A stretch of DNA of 33,914 bases from the NCBI RefSeq assembly GCF_000427965.1, contig NZ_KE386610.1, positions 2,114 to 36,027 on the forward strand, read 5' to 3'. The position numbers were made by a program, and so were the translations under genes. Positions 2,977 through 8,343 of this stretch are shown here, one piece after another (the stretch's first letter is position 1; each line of letters starts with the position of its first letter). The notes below the pieces were generated by a model. It was not told the DNA's origin. It did no database searches and was given only the letters and a program-made list of their open reading frames with translations. Origin of the DNA: Olivibacter sitiensis DSM 17696 (GTDB lineage: Bacteria; Bacteroidota; Bacteroidia; Sphingobacteriales; Sphingobacteriaceae).

Positions 2977-3399
2977 TCAGCAAGCACTATCAATCAGTTT
3001 CTGAGTTGGGACGACCAGCTCGGCAAACACTTCTATGGCCAACCATTCCTGTGCATGACGTTGCAGATCTTTTTGGCTGACGTACGCCCTAAGTCCAACG
3101 CCCGAATCGAGCATATTGGCAATGACAATGTTTTCATAAGCGGCCAAATAACCTAAACGATACTCACCAAAATTTACCTGAACCGCAAAACTGTCATACA
3201 TATTGTCCTGCTCCCGGAAGAGCTGGACTTCATCCCCTTCTTTTATACTTTCTCTTATCTTCCGGAAATCATAATGCATCATCCCACGCAAATAATTGTC
3301 GTAGATTTTTACAGGCTTGGTCTGCAAAAAAGAGTTGGAAGGTAGGACTAATCCTCCTGCTCCCAAGCCTAATGATTTAAGGAAGTCGGTACGGTTCAT
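2977..3399 (-). CDS. HIRAN-domain protein encoded directly after cas9
   Basis: The 140-residue protein has a HIRAN-type core at about residues 35-130: GDEVQLFREQDNMYDSFAVQV, then YRLGYLAAYENIVIANML, then WLAIEVFAELV. HIRAN domains in other proteins (HLTF/Rad5, phage and CRISPR-linked proteins) bind DNA, in HLTF the free 3' end. The first 20 residues (MNRTDFLKSLGLGAGGLVLP) look like a twin-arginine leader but lack the second arginine, so the protein may stay in the cytoplasm. Only 11 nt separate it from the cas9 stop, so co-translation with cas9 is likely. A role in handling DNA ends made by Cas9 or taken up for adaptation is possible but is inference. Confidence 0.82.
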   Translation of the reverse strand: MNRTDFLKSLGLGAGGLVLPSNSFLQTKPVKIYDNYLRGMMHYDFRKIRESIKEGDEVQLFREQDNMYDSFAVQVNFGEYRLGYLAAYENIVIANMLDSGVGLRAYVSQKDLQRHAQEWLAIEVFAELVVPTQKLIDSAC

Positions 3400-3410
3400 G
3401 TCATCTCGAC

Positions 3411-6400
3411 TTAGTATTCTCCAACACTTATAATATCTCCCAAATGATTGATACGGACTTTGAAAATATCTTTTACTGCATTTAATCCTAATTGAGGCTT
3501 ATATACTATATCCTTTAGTTCTTTCTTCTCTTCAACCGTTGTTTCCAAATGATGTCTAAAAAAATAATTCTTCGAAGCAATCTTCTGCACCCTAAACAAA
3601 TTAGGACTAATCAATCTTTTATTTTGCGGATCCAACAAATCTATTTCCTTGGGATCAAATCCTGCTTTTTCATTTGGAAACACAAAATATTCATTCTGTT
3701 TCATGGTAAATAGAAATTGCCAACCCAATCCTTGATTGAATTGCCTGTCAATAACGGGTTCCCCTGCATTGACCAATTGGACGGCATCAAAGAGTGAGAC
3801 AACCCTTTCTTGAAGATTTCCTTTATCATCTCTGTAAATAGCAACATGGTGATTGTTTCCGGTGCTGACGAAGTCAACTGGGATTTTTCGGCCTTCATCA
3901 TCCAAGATAGGTTTGCCCAAATGATCTTTCTTGTAATGTAATGGTTCTGCATTTTTTACTCCCGAAATCGTTACCCTCTTAATACGGATTCCTTTTTCCT
4001 CGTTCAGCCAAATTGGATCTTTATCCAGATTGGAAAATGCCTTTTTAGGATCGTTTCCAAATGCCCCCAGTCGATTCAGCAAAACACGTTTTACATTAGC
4101 ATCCAATACCTTTTCGATAGTCTTCACATCCTTTAGGTTCTCAGGGGTAACGTCTTTTCTTATAGAGTAATCTTCTTCCAGCCAGCTGAGTTTAACGGTT
4201 TCGGGCAAAAGCTCGTTTTTCTCATCGTCGAGATAAATGGGATTCTTGCTCAATGCATTCTTACCTCCGAAAGCTTTTTTGGGATCGTTTCCGTTCTCTT
4301 GCAGGCGTTGCAACAACAACTTTCTGAACAAGGGATTGGCAACACGAACGATGGTTACCTCATCGAACTTCGTGCTGACTTTTTCTTCTTTGTTGACGTA
4401 GTACTGATACTTACCATAAACCGTTTCCTTATGCAATTGCCCTCTTGGTGTCAATTCAACCTTTACTTTTTCGCCGTTTTTGGTTTTTATCTTATTCTTG
4501 TTTTTGGTGACGACCTTGTTCTTCGCTTTGTGTGACACTAATACGTTTTCCAAGTGCACTTTGGCCTGCTCCCTGAAATTCGGGATGGGCAGATTGAACA
4601 CTCGTTTTTTATTGCCTTCGTCATCGTATTCCCAGTGCGTTTCCTTTTCTTCGATGCCTTTTATGTTTCTATATTCCTTGTGCAATTCGTTGTATCGGGC
4701 ATTGAGGTGATTCAGGTAATTGATATGCTGGTGCTTGGTGAAAGCTACAGTCAAGGCATCCATAGCGTGATGGCGATGGTCGTTGCGCTTTGTCCAATCT
4801 ACGATACGTTCCTTGAACGTGCCGTCTTTCTTTTCCACGAGTTCGGTCAACCCCAAGCTCTTGAACTTGCTGAAATTTAATTCCTGCATGATATTGACCA
4901 AACCCCAATCTTCACGTAGCCTGTCCGTAATACTGCCCGAAGTGGATACTACCGACCGAGTAATTTCATACAGCATACCTTTGGCTTTTTTGGCAATATA
5001 CTGGCTATCCCGCAAATCCCTCTCTATAAACCCGTCTCCGATATCGACAGCTTGCTTTAACAGTTTTTGATACTTTGCTTTGGAAATGCCTTCCTCCTTG
5101 TTCTTCAAGCCTAGTTGGTACAGGTGCTCAATGCGTGAGACGTATTCATTGAGTTGTAGGCCACCAAGCCTACTGCCCATATAGTCAAATGTGGTCAAGT
5201 TACCTTTATCCAGATTCGTGTGGCGATAGACAATGGTCTTGTTTGAAAAACTGTCGTCAAACAACCGTGATTGCGGCAGAATATGGTCGATGTCGATCTG
5301 TTTGCTAAACAGAATTTCTCGCGGAATATATGTATTCGTATATAAATCCTTGTAACCGTTATTCTTCAGCTCTTCATACAATCGGTAGCGGATGATGTCA
5401 TTTCTCGTAGGGTGCTTAACGCCAAACTCCATTTGCAATAATTTAAATATCTTTTCGTGGGCCGATTTTGCAGCGTTGATATTGACGGTCATTTCAGCAC
5501 GTTCTTTGGCATTCTTTTTCAGTTCACGTGCCAGCTCTATACGGATTTCATCAAATTTGAAATAGTTGACAATATCCCCATTCTCGTTTTTCTCACTGTT
5601 CTTCTCAATCAGGGCATTCACGACATTCACCATTTGGTTGAGAATTTTCTCCACCACAGGATTGCGCAAGCTGTTTTTTTTCAACAATTCCAATTTGTCT
5701 TTCAACGGACGGTTCTTGATTTCTTCTACCGTCAACGAATTTTTGGAATGCCGATACCCTGCTATTGCCGCCGCTTTGTCATACGAAACTTCCTTGATGT
5801 GCGGATACATCTGGCGCATGGCTTTGGTGCTCAAGTTTCCATAGTCATCCGATAACGGCACATTGGCCAAAATCCTAGCATGCTCTTGCTTAAAGCCGAA
5901 TTTTGTTTCCAATAAAGCGTATAGCTTTTCGTTTCCGCTGGGAGAATTATCACCTTCGTATGAATACAGCAAATGCCACAATGCATAGGACGCTTGCTGT
6001 TCAAATGCTTTTCCGTCCAATTCGGCATCAAATTCAAGGATTTCCGTATTGATGTTCAGGATTCCAAAAATACGACTTACCATTTCCTTGATTTCAGAAG
6101 CAGGAGCTTTCAATTCGGACACATCGATATCATCTTTGCCTTTCAATTTCAACAAATCCTCATCGTATCCTTCGATTTCCAATATCCTCAAATACGCGTC
6201 GTACAGGACTTTGCTAGTGCGATTGCCTTCCAGAATGGGATAGTTCAGCTCCCAATCTGCCGACCTGTAGCCTAAGACCTCCAACGCTTTACTAGCAGAC
6301 AAATTTCCTTTAATGTTCAACTCATCGAAAAGCGTTTGCCTGGCATACTTATCGAATGCAAAAATCTCCTGCTCCCCTTCAGGCAAAGAGGGCTGCCCTG

Positions 6401-7703
6401 TTGTTCTTACGGTTCGTTTTCGGCTTCCCTTTTTACGAACCAACACATTCTGCAACACTTGCCAAATCTTGAACTCCTGAAACAACGGCGAAGATTTAGG
6501 GGCAACCTTCAGACCTATGGTTTTCTTTTTCCCACCAATGGTTTTTTCCTGCGATTCAAATTCGCAAAAACTGATTAAGCCTTTTTGTGACTTGAGCTTT
6601 CGTTGATAGAAAATCACGATGTCGCGTATCTCGGCCTTCAGCTCATTGGTCAGTTCCAAATGATATTTGGATTGCTCTTTCCAAATAGCTTCAAACTCAT
6701 CCAGATAATCCTGACGATAAAACACTTGATTTTTCAGCCTTGTATGTGGATTGGCTTGTAATTGCTTGTACAGATACTGACCAACGGTCTCCTTATTAAA
6801 GTACAATTCCTTGCTCCTGTCGGAAATGGCTCCCAGATAACCGCTCGAACTGTTCAGGTTACTGTTGATTTCCGTAATCACATAAGCTACTTCCTCCTTT
6901 TCCAACTGCTGCGAAACGGACTCGCTTCTCCATTTATAGGCCTGCAATTTCTTTTCATCCCTGTTTCCCTTGTTTTCGGCGGTATTAAACCCATAAGTTC
7001 CCCAAAAGGCAGCGGAAGTCGCACGTTGTCCTTTTCCTTGCAGGTTTTTATAAAAATCGTCCGTAAGAATTTCGGGATAGAATTGCTTTTGAAATTTCCA
7101 GACCTTATCAAATTCCGCTTGCAGATCCGAGCGGTAAAAATCAGGGATATGCTTTTTTCCATCCTGCAATAATTGATAGGCCAATTGTCCAGGTGTAAGA
7201 TTTTCCTCATATAATCTTTTCGCCACGGCCATTCCGTCAATGGCCTGCCCTTCATCCTCATTCTTGGCCTTTCGGCTACTTTTATAACCACGCTTTTTAT
7301 TAATCGCCAAAAGCACACGCGCCAATTCCTCTTTTTCGATTTTCCCCGTAACAGCTTTCGATCGCAATCTCCAGGTTTCGTGCGTAGTATGTTTGCCGTC
7401 CTCCGCCAGTATCGTCTCGTTGGAAATGAAATTAGCTTTCAGCAATACATCTATCAGATTTTTCCTACGCAATTGATAACGATCAAGATTACGGCGCATG
7501 CCCCTCTTCAACGTTCTATCGGCATTTTCCGATACTGGTTTTCCTTTTTCGAAATTGCTCTGTTCATCCGTAGTCAATGGGTTTACACGGACACCTATTT
7601 GTACGATTTCAGATTGTTCAGGCGTATTGCCCTCAATGACGTGGGCAAAACCGATGGAAGTGGTGCCAAGATCAAGGCCGAGTATATTTTTATGAATATT
7701 CAT
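3411..7703 (-). CDS. cas9: CRISPR-associated endonuclease Cas9 (type II-C, long Bacteroidetes form)
   Basis: The 1430-residue protein is the RNA-guided DNA endonuclease of the locus, close in size to the long Bacteroidetes II-C Cas9s. RuvC-I is NILGLDLGTTSIGF with the catalytic Asp at 11. An arginine-rich bridge helix follows at about 63-87 (RTLKRGMRRNLDRYQLRRKN). RuvC-II is IRIELAREL with Glu at about 723, HNH is DIDHILPQS with His at about 807, and RuvC-III is HRHHAMDAL with His 979 and Asp 982. All catalytic residues are present, so the enzyme should be active. The C-terminal ~280 residues would be the PAM-interacting part. The promoter is predicted at 7729-7736 (TATTTTTG, minus strand). 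The upstream region is unusual: a crRNA-like RNA whose spacer resembles this promoter, and remains of another Cas9. Confidence 0.97.
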   Translation of the reverse strand: MNIHKNILGLDLGTTSIGFAHVIEGNTPEQSEIVQIGVRVNPLTTDEQSNFEKGKPVSENADRTLKRGMRRNLDRYQLRRKNLIDVLLKANFISNETILAEDGKHTTHETWRLRSKAVTGKIEKEELARVLLAINKKRGYKSSRKAKNEDEGQAIDGMAVAKRLYEENLTPGQLAYQLLQDGKKHIPDFYRSDLQAEFDKVWKFQKQFYPEILTDDFYKNLQGKGQRATSAAFWGTYGFNTAENKGNRDEKKLQAYKWRSESVSQQLEKEEVAYVITEINSNLNSSSGYLGAISDRSKELYFNKETVGQYLYKQLQANPHTRLKNQVFYRQDYLDEFEAIWKEQSKYHLELTNELKAEIRDIVIFYQRKLKSQKGLISFCEFESQEKTIGGKKKTIGLKVAPKSSPLFQEFKIWQVLQNVLVRKKGSRKRTVRTTGQPSLPEGEQEIFAFDKYARQTLFDELNIKGNLSASKALEVLGYRSADWELNYPILEGNRTSKVLYDAYLRILEIEGYDEDLLKLKGKDDIDVSELKAPASEIKEMVSRIFGILNINTEILEFDAELDGKAFEQQASYALWHLLYSYEGDNSPSGNEKLYALLETKFGFKQEHARILANVPLSDDYGNLSTKAMRQMYPHIKEVSYDKAAAIAGYRHSKNSLTVEEIKNRPLKDKLELLKKNSLRNPVVEKILNQMVNVVNALIEKNSEKNENGDIVNYFKFDEIRIELARELKKNAKERAEMTVNINAAKSAHEKIFKLLQMEFGVKHPTRNDIIRYRLYEELKNNGYKDLYTNTYIPREILFSKQIDIDHILPQSRLFDDSFSNKTIVYRHTNLDKGNLTTFDYMGSRLGGLQLNEYVSRIEHLYQLGLKNKEEGISKAKYQKLLKQAVDIGDGFIERDLRDSQYIAKKAKGMLYEITRSVVSTSGSITDRLREDWGLVNIMQELNFSKFKSLGLTELVEKKDGTFKERIVDWTKRNDHRHHAMDALTVAFTKHQHINYLNHLNARYNELHKEYRNIKGIEEKETHWEYDDEGNKKRVFNLPIPNFREQAKVHLENVLVSHKAKNKVVTKNKNKIKTKNGEKVKVELTPRGQLHKETVYGKYQYYVNKEEKVSTKFDEVTIVRVANPLFRKLLLQRLQENGNDPKKAFGGKNALSKNPIYLDDEKNELLPETVKLSWLEEDYSIRKDVTPENLKDVKTIEKVLDANVKRVLLNRLGAFGNDPKKAFSNLDKDPIWLNEEKGIRIKRVTISGVKNAEPLHYKKDHLGKPILDDEGRKIPVDFVSTGNNHHVAIYRDDKGNLQERVVSLFDAVQLVNAGEPVIDRQFNQGLGWQFLFTMKQNEYFVFPNEKAGFDPKEIDLLDPQNKRLISPNLFRVQKIASKNYFFRHHLETTVEEKKELKDIVYKPQLGLNAVKDIFKVRINHLGDIISVGEY

Positions 7704-7713
7704 AACTAAAAAA

Positions 7714-7767
7714 CTGTCAGTAAGATTACAAAAATAAAAAAATCTTCAGTAAGAAAAAATATTTGGA
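7714..7767 (-). promoter_or_regulatory. cas9 promoter region with two guide-seed-like sites
   Basis: Read on the minus strand, TATTTTTG (complement of 7729-7736) fits the Bacteroidetes -7 element TAnnTTTG. The -33 region is AT-rich with no clear TTTG. Two copies of CTTACTGA lie on this strand: complement of 7746-7753 (in the -33 region) and complement of 7717-7724 (near the start of transcription). The first is the end of a 22-nt segment (7746-7767) that nearly repeats the spacer-like part of the plus-strand RNA at 7907-7929. Both copies are followed by N-purine-purine-TTTTTT. Confidence 0.6.
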
Positions 7768-7792
7768 CATACAGAATCATTCTATACCTTTG
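7762..7792 (+). promoter_or_regulatory. Bacteroidetes-type promoter for the crRNA-like RNA
   Basis: TTTG (7762-7765), 19 nt, then TATACCTTTGC with TAccTTTG at 7785-7792 matches the TTTG-N19/20-TAnnTTTG consensus exactly. Transcription would start near 7798 and run right. The -33 TTTG lies inside the segment (7746-7767) that matches the RNA's own spacer-like part, so occupancy there could affect both this promoter and the divergent cas9 promoter. Confidence 0.65.
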
Positions 7793-7797
7793 CAGAG

Positions 7798-7979
7798 CGG
7801 GAGAGCCGGGTTAATACCTCTAACCACATTAGAGTTGCATGCAATGAGTTTAGCTTCATCTGCTATCTTTATACAATGCCTCGCTAATACAATTTTGGAG
7901 TGAAATTCCAAATATTTTTCACTTACTGAGTTGTGATTTGCTTTCTTTGGGGACTACCTAATATAGGTAGTCCTTTTTT
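7798..7979 (+). ncRNA. Predicted solitary crRNA-like RNA with cas9-promoter guide
   Basis: From the promoter above, the transcript would run about 180 nt to an intrinsic terminator: GGACTACCTA-ata-TAGGTAGTCC (7951-7973) followed by six T (7974-7979). At 7930-7945 lies GTTGTGATTTGCTTTC, which pairs with the tracrRNA anti-repeat (8167-8182) over 15 Watson-Crick pairs plus one G-U. The 16-mer also matches the start of Bacteroidetes II-C CRISPR repeats as I remember them. Directly 5' of it, where a crRNA carries its spacer, 7907-7929 is an imperfect copy of the cas9 promoter region (7746-7767, minus strand): identical except for CA in place of T in the middle, with an 8-nt perfect seed next to the repeat. 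The 5' ~100 nt contain short hairpins of unknown use. This resembles tracr-L, scaRNA and the CreR-type RNAs that repress cas genes by partial matching. Alternatives are a dead array remnant or a MITE. Confidence 0.6.
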
Positions 7980-8061
7980 GATTCAGCACTTCCAAATTAT
8001 ATTTAGCCAACGCCCGCCCTACCGAGTTCGTTCCCAAATCCAACCCTAATATTGTCTTCAT
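7954..8061 (-). pseudogene. 5' remnant of a second cas9 (RuvC-I motif only)
   Basis: From the ATG at 8061 the minus strand encodes MKTILGLDLGTNSVGRALAK followed by about eight more native-looking residues. It then runs into the terminator of the small RNA and stops after 35 codons. ILGLDLGTNSVG is the RuvC-I motif at the start of Cas9 proteins, with the catalytic Asp kept. The usual aromatic residue after SVG/SIG is Arg here. It differs clearly from the intact gene's N terminus (NILGLDLGTTSIGFAHV), so it is not a simple recent duplication of it. It starts about 105 bp from the tracrRNA gene. This suggests the tracrRNA once served, or still serves, a lost Cas9 that was replaced by the current one. 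Confidence 0.75.
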
Positions 8062-8117: not shown

Positions 8118-8161
8118 TACGGTTTCCCGTATTGCAAGTACCAAAACATATATTATCTTTG
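8118..8161 (+). promoter_or_regulatory. tracrRNA promoter with palindromic operator-like site
   Basis: TAtcTTTG at 8154-8161 is a good -7 element, with ATTG at 8131-8134 at a 19-nt spacing as -33. TACGG-TTTC-CCGTA at 8118-8131 abuts the -33 element. It is the reverse complement of the TACGG-GAAA-CCGTA core found upstream of three other transcription units in this window. Transcription would start at or near 8167, the first base of the anti-repeat. Confidence 0.7.
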
Positions 8162-8166
8162 CTTAT

Positions 8167-8238
8167 GAAAGCAAATCACAATAAGGATTATTCCGTTGTG
8201 AAAACATTTAGCGCCTCGACTATCTTCGGGGCTTTTTT
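8167..8238 (+). ncRNA. tracrRNA of the type II-C system
   Basis: The 5' end GAAAGCAAATCACAAT is the anti-repeat for GTTGTGATTTGCTTTC. It is followed by AAGGATTATTCC and GTTGTGAAAAC, the layout of Bacteroidetes II-C tracrRNAs. The RNA ends in an intrinsic terminator: GCCTCGA (8213-8219) pairs with TCGGGGC (8226-8232) through one G-U, then six T (8233-8238). Its role is to pair with crRNA repeats for RNase III processing and to hold the guide in Cas9. It is transcribed away from cas9. It is the only anti-repeat I found in the window. Confidence 0.85.
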
Positions 8239-8343
8239 ATGCCCAAATGTTTCGTGAACGCTAGTAGCCAATTAATACGACGTGAACAAAACATTTAAGG
8301 CGGGGCAACTCGCCCTTATTTATCTCAACCTGGAGGTTTCCCT

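Follow-up and report, generated by a model that had tools for sequence, protein, structure and literature searches.

A predicted one-spacer guide RNA matching the cas9 promoter region in a type II-C locus of Olivibacter sitiensis

Known guided repression and the Olivibacter unit

Several CRISPR systems are reported to direct their own effector to a promoter. In the type II-A system of S. pyogenes, tracr-L guides Cas9 to its own cas promoter through an 11-nucleotide (nt) match, with repression and no apparent cutting (PMC8616872). CreR, an RNA resembling a CRISPR RNA (crRNA), sends the effector to its own cas promoter in type I and type V-A systems (PMC12737573), and in CreTA a guide from ectopic repeats, CreA, represses a promoter (PMC9458426). 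The scaRNA of the type II-B system of F. novicida is described, in the accessible parts of its literature, as a degenerate-repeat RNA that acts on DNA with Cas9 and the trans-activating crRNA (tracrRNA), without cutting. We analyzed a stretch of 33,914 nt from Olivibacter sitiensis DSM 17696 (assembly GCF_000427965.1, contig NZ_KE386610.1, positions 2,114 to 36,027; hereafter the window, whose own numbering is used) in which a small unit between tracrRNA and cas9 appears to encode a one-spacer crRNA-like RNA, here called a mini-crRNA, that matches the cas9 promoter region. Guide and target have changed together in related loci, so that Cas9 is probably the agent of its own repression.

As with tracr-L, a short match would bring Cas9 to its own cas promoter. 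That RNA is the tracrRNA in a long form, a natural single guide, whereas the window has a separate repeat-bearing transcript that would need the tracrRNA; guide and tracrRNA are not fused, the segments 7907–7929 and 8163–8239 each appearing to have a promoter motif and a terminator. CreR, also present in types I-B and I-E, works with other effectors. The window unit would use Cas9 and has one truncated repeat and a terminator, and a clear 5′ hairpin in half of the mini-crRNA loci is a further difference. With Cas9 as effector the unit falls outside CreR proper (type I or V-A effector); as a stand-alone repeat outside the array, it falls within CreR in the wide sense. The F. novicida scaRNA differs in that it is reported to repress lipoprotein genes, not cas9, through a 15-bp match in a 5′ untranslated region. 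That of N. meningitidis is likewise type II-C, a CRISPR-associated small RNA bound by Cas9, and the available text reports it as post-transcriptional. CreTA involves Cascade and a toxic RNA; no toxin was recognized in the window, where the short frames of the mini-crRNA unit were not searched for toxin matches. A structured-RNA survey found a Bacteroidetes II-C tracrRNA, and its accessible part makes no mention of a cas9-repressing guide. Among the listed literature matches on type II-C with tracr-L, scaRNA, stand-alone repeats, or autorepression, judged by title and start of abstract, the layout is undescribed. The study of stand-alone repeats by Shmakov et al. (2023, NAR) is reported to concern mainly types I and V-A. 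Guided autorepression has been described in some type II-A systems (tracr-L) and in types I and V-A (CreR); the window unit, a type II-C case, would differ from both as a transcript of its own with a single repeat.

The unit lies on the plus strand and comprises a promoter, a spacer-like segment, a truncated repeat, and a terminator. Its promoter (7762–7792) has TTTG at 7762–7765, a spacing of 19 nt, and TACCTTTG at 7785–7792; the Bacteroidetes promoter consensus is TTTG/TAnnTTTG. The predicted transcript, with its start placed from the promoter, would be ~180 nt long (7798–7979), and the whole cassette aligns with that of a related locus (L152 in our numbering of loci). The spacer-like guide segment TCCAAATATTTTTCACTTACTGA (7907–7929) has a bulge from CA at 7920–7921 and ends in the seed CTTACTGA (7922–7929). 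It is followed by the truncated repeat (7930–7948), which corresponds to nt 1–19 of the 46-nt array repeat, and by an intrinsic terminator (7949–7979, stem 7949–7975). A hairpin 5′ of the repeat (7898–7924, arms 7898–7905 and 7917–7924) leaves ACTGA of the seed unpaired; its 45-nt fold has −7.1 kcal/mol, a value without shuffle control. The repeat segment 7930–7945, which matches 8167–8182 on the other strand, can pair with the tracrRNA anti-repeat there at 15 of 16 bases, a further G-U pair being possible. At up to two mismatches this segment has two matches in the window, itself and 8167–8182, where 0.02 are expected. The stand-alone repeat is at C53:10043, apart from the array copies at C53:1 and 77. 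Two frames of at least 20 amino acids (aa) fall within the unit, one of 46 aa that starts inside the promoter and one of 38 aa from the repeat on.

Alternatively, this RNA could resemble a crRNA only in order to sequester Cas9 or the tracrRNA by competition, as phage Racr RNAs are reported to do, a sponge with no need of a guide match. RNA anti-CRISPRs from solitary repeats have been published (PMC10651486, as far as the accessible text goes), and the truncated repeat matches the tracr-pairing part. A sponge leaves unexplained both the seed matches that loci have to themselves and the compensated changes described below, and we consider it extremely improbable.

The guide has two matches before cas9, both on the minus strand. 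At site 1 the minus strand of 7746–7767, TCCAAATATTTTTTCTTACTGA, is identical to the spacer over 13 nt, has T where the spacer has CA, and is again identical over the 8 nt that lead to the repeat (seed target 7746–7753; AGATTT on the side of the protospacer-adjacent motif [PAM], 7745–7740). The next target base differs from the repeat, so the match ends at the boundary. An earlier note on this DNA had proposed this match, with its perfect 8-nt seed and its end exactly at the repeat, together with the positions of the four elements in 7746–7979 and the complementarity of a 16-nt repeat segment to the anti-repeat; direct comparison of the sequences confirmed each of these. Site 2 (7717–7724, PAM-side CAGTTT 7716–7711) is new relative to the note, has the same 8-nt seed, and is the counterpart of a second site in L152. 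Site 1, in a further point absent from the note, overlaps the RNA's own −33 box (TTTG 7762–7765) inside the divergent promoter; it also covers the likely −33 region of the cas9 promoter (assigned by eye). Site 2 lies 13–20 nt before cas9, away from the RNA's own promoter, and a guide on it would cover the likely cas9 −7 box, TATTTTTG (7729–7736, minus strand). Judged by the window alone, the 8-nt seed stands out only slightly (P = 0.017, 1000 shuffles) and the 11-nt distal block more clearly (11 of 11, P = 0.002); the strength of the window match is comparative rather than single-locus.

Guide and target in related loci

Related cas9 loci were taken from whole genomes and from genome contigs (the best 80 of 551). 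We analyzed 131 loci; removal of six duplicates gave 125 nonredundant loci, window included. The distant or fragmentary L019–L037 and also L124, L137, L141, L142, L145, L156–L158, L171, and L172 were retrieved and left out, and L086 and L113 have <300 nt upstream of cas9. The tracrRNA is recognizable in 123 loci (its motif is missing in L086 and L140) and lies 40–200 nt before cas9 in 100 of these. A scan for stand-alone repeats, at up to one mismatch and within 1500 nt upstream of cas9, gave 26 repeat-like matches: 15 with an own seed of at least 8 nt and 11 with one of 7 nt or less. By eye, some of the latter are tracr anti-repeats (L065, L072, L073, and L143), and others fall in coding sequence or are additional stretches in L038, L042, and L152. 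Further matches with two mismatches between tracrRNA and cas9 (L111, L116, L132, and one extra each in L042 and L152) were judged incidental by eye and left unscored. Stand-alone repeats with an own-locus seed match of 8–11 nt thus occur in 15 of 125 loci, or 14 without L154, a near-copy of L074; by eye, they are scattered over the cas9 tree (113 proteins).

In eight loci, L154 aside, the target lies directly before cas9 (window, L010, L038, L042, L054, L055, L074, and L152), with the repeat on the opposite strand 142–344 nt before cas9; L054 is from Paenimyroides aquimaris and L055 from Niabella drilacis. All eight have an own seed match of 8–10 nt on the cas9 strand in the cas9 promoter region, the sequences differing among them. 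Two divergent repeat-like stretches farther off, in L038 (−1010) and L152 (−1240), have no own match. L136 is perhaps to be counted among the cas9-targeting loci. Its unit is on the cas9 strand, and an 11-nt match, TTCTTATATAT followed by AGGTTC, precedes the unit's own promoter box; this match lies ~276 nt upstream of cas9, from which the unit's terminator separates it.

The changes in guide and target are paired. The homologous cassettes of the window and L152 can be aligned over their full length (score 106, compared with 60 for the best of 100 shuffles) and differ at one seed base, where C in the spacer becomes T and G becomes A in both targets. Between L038 and L042, AGATTAGTAT becomes ATATTAGTAT in guide and target alike, one compensated change. 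These pairs bear out the earlier note's prediction that spacer and promoter co-vary; as for its view that a kept repeat with a lost match in homologous loci would tell against it, all eight close divergent loci retain a match to their own cas9 promoter region. The mismatches are conserved as well. Window and L152 both keep an A/T mismatch at position 9 and the CA-for-T bulge, and beyond the bulge the own site 1 matches over 11 of 11 nt in the window (P = 0.002) and 10 of 11 in L152 (P = 0.003), the sequences of this distal block differing. In L010, L054, L055, L038, L042, and L074, the seed is 10 nt long and position 11 has G in the guide and T in the target, with no distal match. Co-variation has thus preserved a restricted match to the cas promoter of the same locus, a mark of autorepressing crRNA-like RNAs, and from the case of tracr-L we infer that such limited pairings are what binding without cleavage would need.

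A decaying CRISPR remnant is a different way to read the unit: one repeat left after cas9 replacement, functionless, beside a duplicated promoter fragment. A broken cas9 start does adjoin it (7980–8061), similar remnants occur in L010 and L054, and the long window match could be a recent duplication. However, the promoter, the tracr-pairing bases, and the terminator look intact, the occurrence is spread over the cas9 tree (by eye), and selection is the best explanation for the compensated changes and for the mismatches that divergent loci have conserved. We therefore regard a functionless remnant as very unlikely.

The bases that follow the seed targets are also alike. On the cas9 strand, AGATTATAGT is followed by GAGTTT in L010 and L054, TGAGTAGTAT by GGGTTC in L055, the L038 and L042 seeds by GAGTTT, AGATTAGTAG by GAATTT in L074, and CTTATTGA by TAGTTT, twice, in L152; with the two window sites these fit a common PAM-side motif, NRRTWY, which the note did not mention. 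This motif follows 14 of 16 own sites (all 14 in 12 loci, and not those in L091 and L106, which have TAAACG). In controls on the 12 loci, L091 and L106 being omitted, it follows 20 of the 238 best matches between loci and, over all positions, 450 of 15,528. Having been read from the same sites, it describes them and does not amount to an independent PAM.

Own-locus seed lengths sum to 133 over the 14 loci, a sum reached in none of 20,000 region permutations, although this is not a clean probability because the loci are partly related. The mean cross-locus seed match is 5.6 nt. L154 was omitted from this test, which L058, L091, and L106 joined after having been noticed by eye in scans; the mask was 45 nt (60 nt would cut into the targets of L010 and L054). 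In the 110 loci without a mini-crRNA, ten seeds (those of L091 and L106 omitted) joined to NRRTWY have no occurrence within 300 nt upstream of cas9, and the seeds without the motif have five in total. Chance matching was rejected on the permutations and these 110 loci, and a generic promoter motif on the absence of seed plus NRRTWY before cas9 in the latter.

The repeated 8- to 10-nt words could in principle be operators of a DNA-binding repressor, the adjoining repeat remnant being incidental. They do form inverted and direct repeats around the promoter, for example, in L010 and L054, and occur twice in the window and L152. For operators, neither the shared PAM-side motif at 14 of 16 sites nor the lack of seed plus motif in loci without a mini-crRNA would be expected. 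Moreover, the 5′ hairpin arm pairs with the seed partly by G-U (L055) or with bulges (L038 and L042), while guide and target stay identical. We consider operators highly improbable.

Hairpins in the 45 nt before the repeat are clear in seven of the 14 mini-crRNAs (window, L010, L054, L055, L043, L087, and L091; −7 to −12 kcal/mol) and weak in the other seven (−0.8 to −5.5 kcal/mol), all without shuffles. The hairpin encloses the seed to its end in L010, L054, L055, L043, and L087, and leaves the last 5 nt free in the window. It may time loading or mark a processing site.

Several observations weigh against guided repression of cas9. The loci are kin, L010 and L054 having the same seed, and the permutation count overstates their independence. 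Single-locus seed P-values are modest in some loci (window 0.017, L152 0.053, L058 0.080, L043 0.099). Seeds were sought anchored at the repeat, so that their ending there is by construction, and in L010, L055, L038, and L042 the next base (G) also matches the repeat. NRRTWY has the circularity described above, and array spacers gave no check on it: A 957-nt piece of 8401 nt from five arrays had no matches to phages, nor had four spacer ends to viral contigs (1626 spacers extracted). The distal block is missing at site 2, with 7 of 11 nt in both the window (P = 0.13) and L152 (P = 0.21), and in seven other loci. Six loci (L152 site 1, L010, L054, L055, L038, and L074) do favor repression of cas9, in that the PAM side of the seed is 21–27 nt upstream of a −7 box, either exact or with one deviating base; by contrast, the window −7 box is only 9 nt from site 1, L042 has no −7 box within one mismatch, and the full divergent promoter motif is present in the window and L152 only. 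Finally, several guides have their seed in a hairpin, which could hinder loading.

tRNA-linked loci, cas9 replacement, and surrounding genes

In L043, L087, and L058, a tRNA-like gene is followed by the mini-crRNA and a terminator, ~120–440 nt upstream of cas9. ARAGORN calls these genes Ile-UAU, Phe-GAA, and Ile-UAU, respectively, and by eye their upper anticodon stem is apparently mismatched. The tRNA and mini-crRNA look like one transcript, and the match to the seed (ATAAATCA or GATATAAATCA) lies immediately upstream of the promoter box of this unit (single-locus seed P = 0.099, 0.002, and 0.080). These loci may be closer to CreTA than the window is, and are possible type II CreTA units with a putative tRNA-like toxin. 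In L091 (−535 relative to cas9) and L106 (−498), the target of the guide lies upstream of the guide's own promoter, pairs with a 1-nt bulge, and has TAAACG on the PAM side; the mini-crRNA precedes a conserved 35-aa frame (97% identical) with no Pfam match; this arrangement, too, looks CreTA-like.

The window guide could similarly regulate mainly its own promoter, or be a cargo or addiction guide of the CreA kind, with cas9 repressed only incidentally, through the divergent overlap. The −33 box of the RNA's own promoter does fall within site 1, and in L043, L087, L058, L091, L106, and L136 the targets precede the promoter of the apparent own guide transcript. Against this stand the position of site 2, on the cas9 side and away from that promoter, and the size of the window unit's frames, which are short (toxin matches not sought). 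The genome has no other target in the form of CACTTACTGA plus NRRTWY, a 10-nt requirement that would miss 8-nt targets such as the two known ones, and none in an ungapped search with three mismatches, which also misses them; both searches are weak because neither recovers the known targets. We think such a primary role unlikely, and retain repression of cas9 as the preferred reading.

A remnant of another cas9's 5′ end (MKTILGLDLGTNSVGRALAKYNLEVLN; 7980–8061, minus strand) lies between tracrRNA and mini-crRNA. Broken cas9 starts lie there in L010 and L054 as well, and that of the window is unlike the current cas9 start. The tracr-side DNA of the window resembles L009 (79% over 218 nt) and L148 (88% over 125 nt). 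From these sequences it is likely that an incoming cas9, with its own promoter and mini-crRNA, replaced the resident cas9 and left its first codons. In F. psychrophilum, Cas9 replacement and an insertion in the tracr–cas9 gap have been proposed (PMC10309648, accessible text). A DUF3800 gene lies between tracrRNA and mini-crRNA in L152 (Pfam) and L038, with similar DNA by eye in L042 and L074; L152 and L038 have a common stretch, GGATCGGGGTGTCCCCAATCGGAAT, and a terminator-like run before it, and L038 and L042 an inverted repeat copy in the DUF3800 region. A HIRVA peptide, seen by eye in the window leader and an L152 frame, was unsupported by tblastn. In L004, a lone repeat copy (1501–1546; G000:C1:38949–38994) is identical to the array repeat at 37 of 46 positions (best elsewhere in the window, 25) and directly precedes a DUF2683-YoeB toxin–antitoxin pair, with no seed match within L004.

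The window locus has a type II cas9 (3411–7703, minus strand; 1430 aa, RuvC_III, HNH_4, TIGR01865) and cas1 (552–1448, type II model TIGR03639), a tracrRNA, and an array repeat able to pair with it. A cas2-sized frame (125–478) matched no model in the protein model scans, and neither csn2 nor cas4 was among the nine window proteins scanned, the remaining frames lying outside that scan. From the make-up of the locus we read the subtype as probably II-C. The tracrRNA (8163–8239, plus strand; anti-repeat 8167–8182) has a promoter box, TATCTTTG, at 8154–8161 and a terminator at 8213–8232. Its match to the Rfam model is weak (22.3 bits; gathering score 70); at gathering threshold Rfam gives nothing in the window, with four weak matches below. 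The array lies outside the window, to its left, partly masked, with two copies of the 46-nt repeat GTTGTGATTTGCTTTCTTTCTTTGAATTACTGATATTCGGAACAAC visible. At 1450–2863 and 2977–3399 are RhuM/Fic-type genes, which lie between cas1 and cas9, and a gene for a HIRAN protein, which follows cas9; a HIRAN-like frame precedes cas9 in L079 and L132 (by eye).

Proposed mechanism and significance

We consider it very likely that an RNA from 7798–7979, loaded into Cas9 together with the tracrRNA, acts without cutting to repress both cas9 and the RNA's own divergent promoter. Once transcribed as a one-spacer crRNA-like RNA, it would pair with the tracrRNA through its truncated repeat, be processed, and load Cas9, which it would then direct to the divergent promoter region of cas9 and mini-crRNA, at one site or at two. 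There the 8-nt seed, bulge, and 13-nt distal block (site 1) should permit binding and not cutting. Bound Cas9 would cover the cas9 promoter, at its likely −33 region from site 1 and its likely −7 box from site 2, and also the −33 box of the RNA's own promoter; with both promoters covered, expression of Cas9 and of its guide would be switched off at the same time. Competition from array crRNAs for Cas9 and the tracrRNA would ease this repression.

More tentatively, and with considerable doubt, the Bacteroidetes II-C systems may have a whole layer of Cas9-guided self-control. One arm would repress cas9 (window, L010, L038, L042, L054, L055, L074, L152, and perhaps L136). The other (L043, L087, and L058) would guard an unusual tRNA-like gene, set among CRISPR elements, as a type II CreTA, in which loss of Cas9 would release the tRNA, keeping Cas9 from loss or blockage.

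If self-repression holds, this II-C version with its own one-repeat transcript would mean that Cas9 self-control has arisen again, by another route, in a large bacterial group. Its natural guides, from which a PAM-like motif, NRRTWY, is predicted, also show the limited pairings that evolution has kept (8 nt with a bulge, or 10 nt with a mismatch), presumably to allow Cas9 to bind but not to cut.
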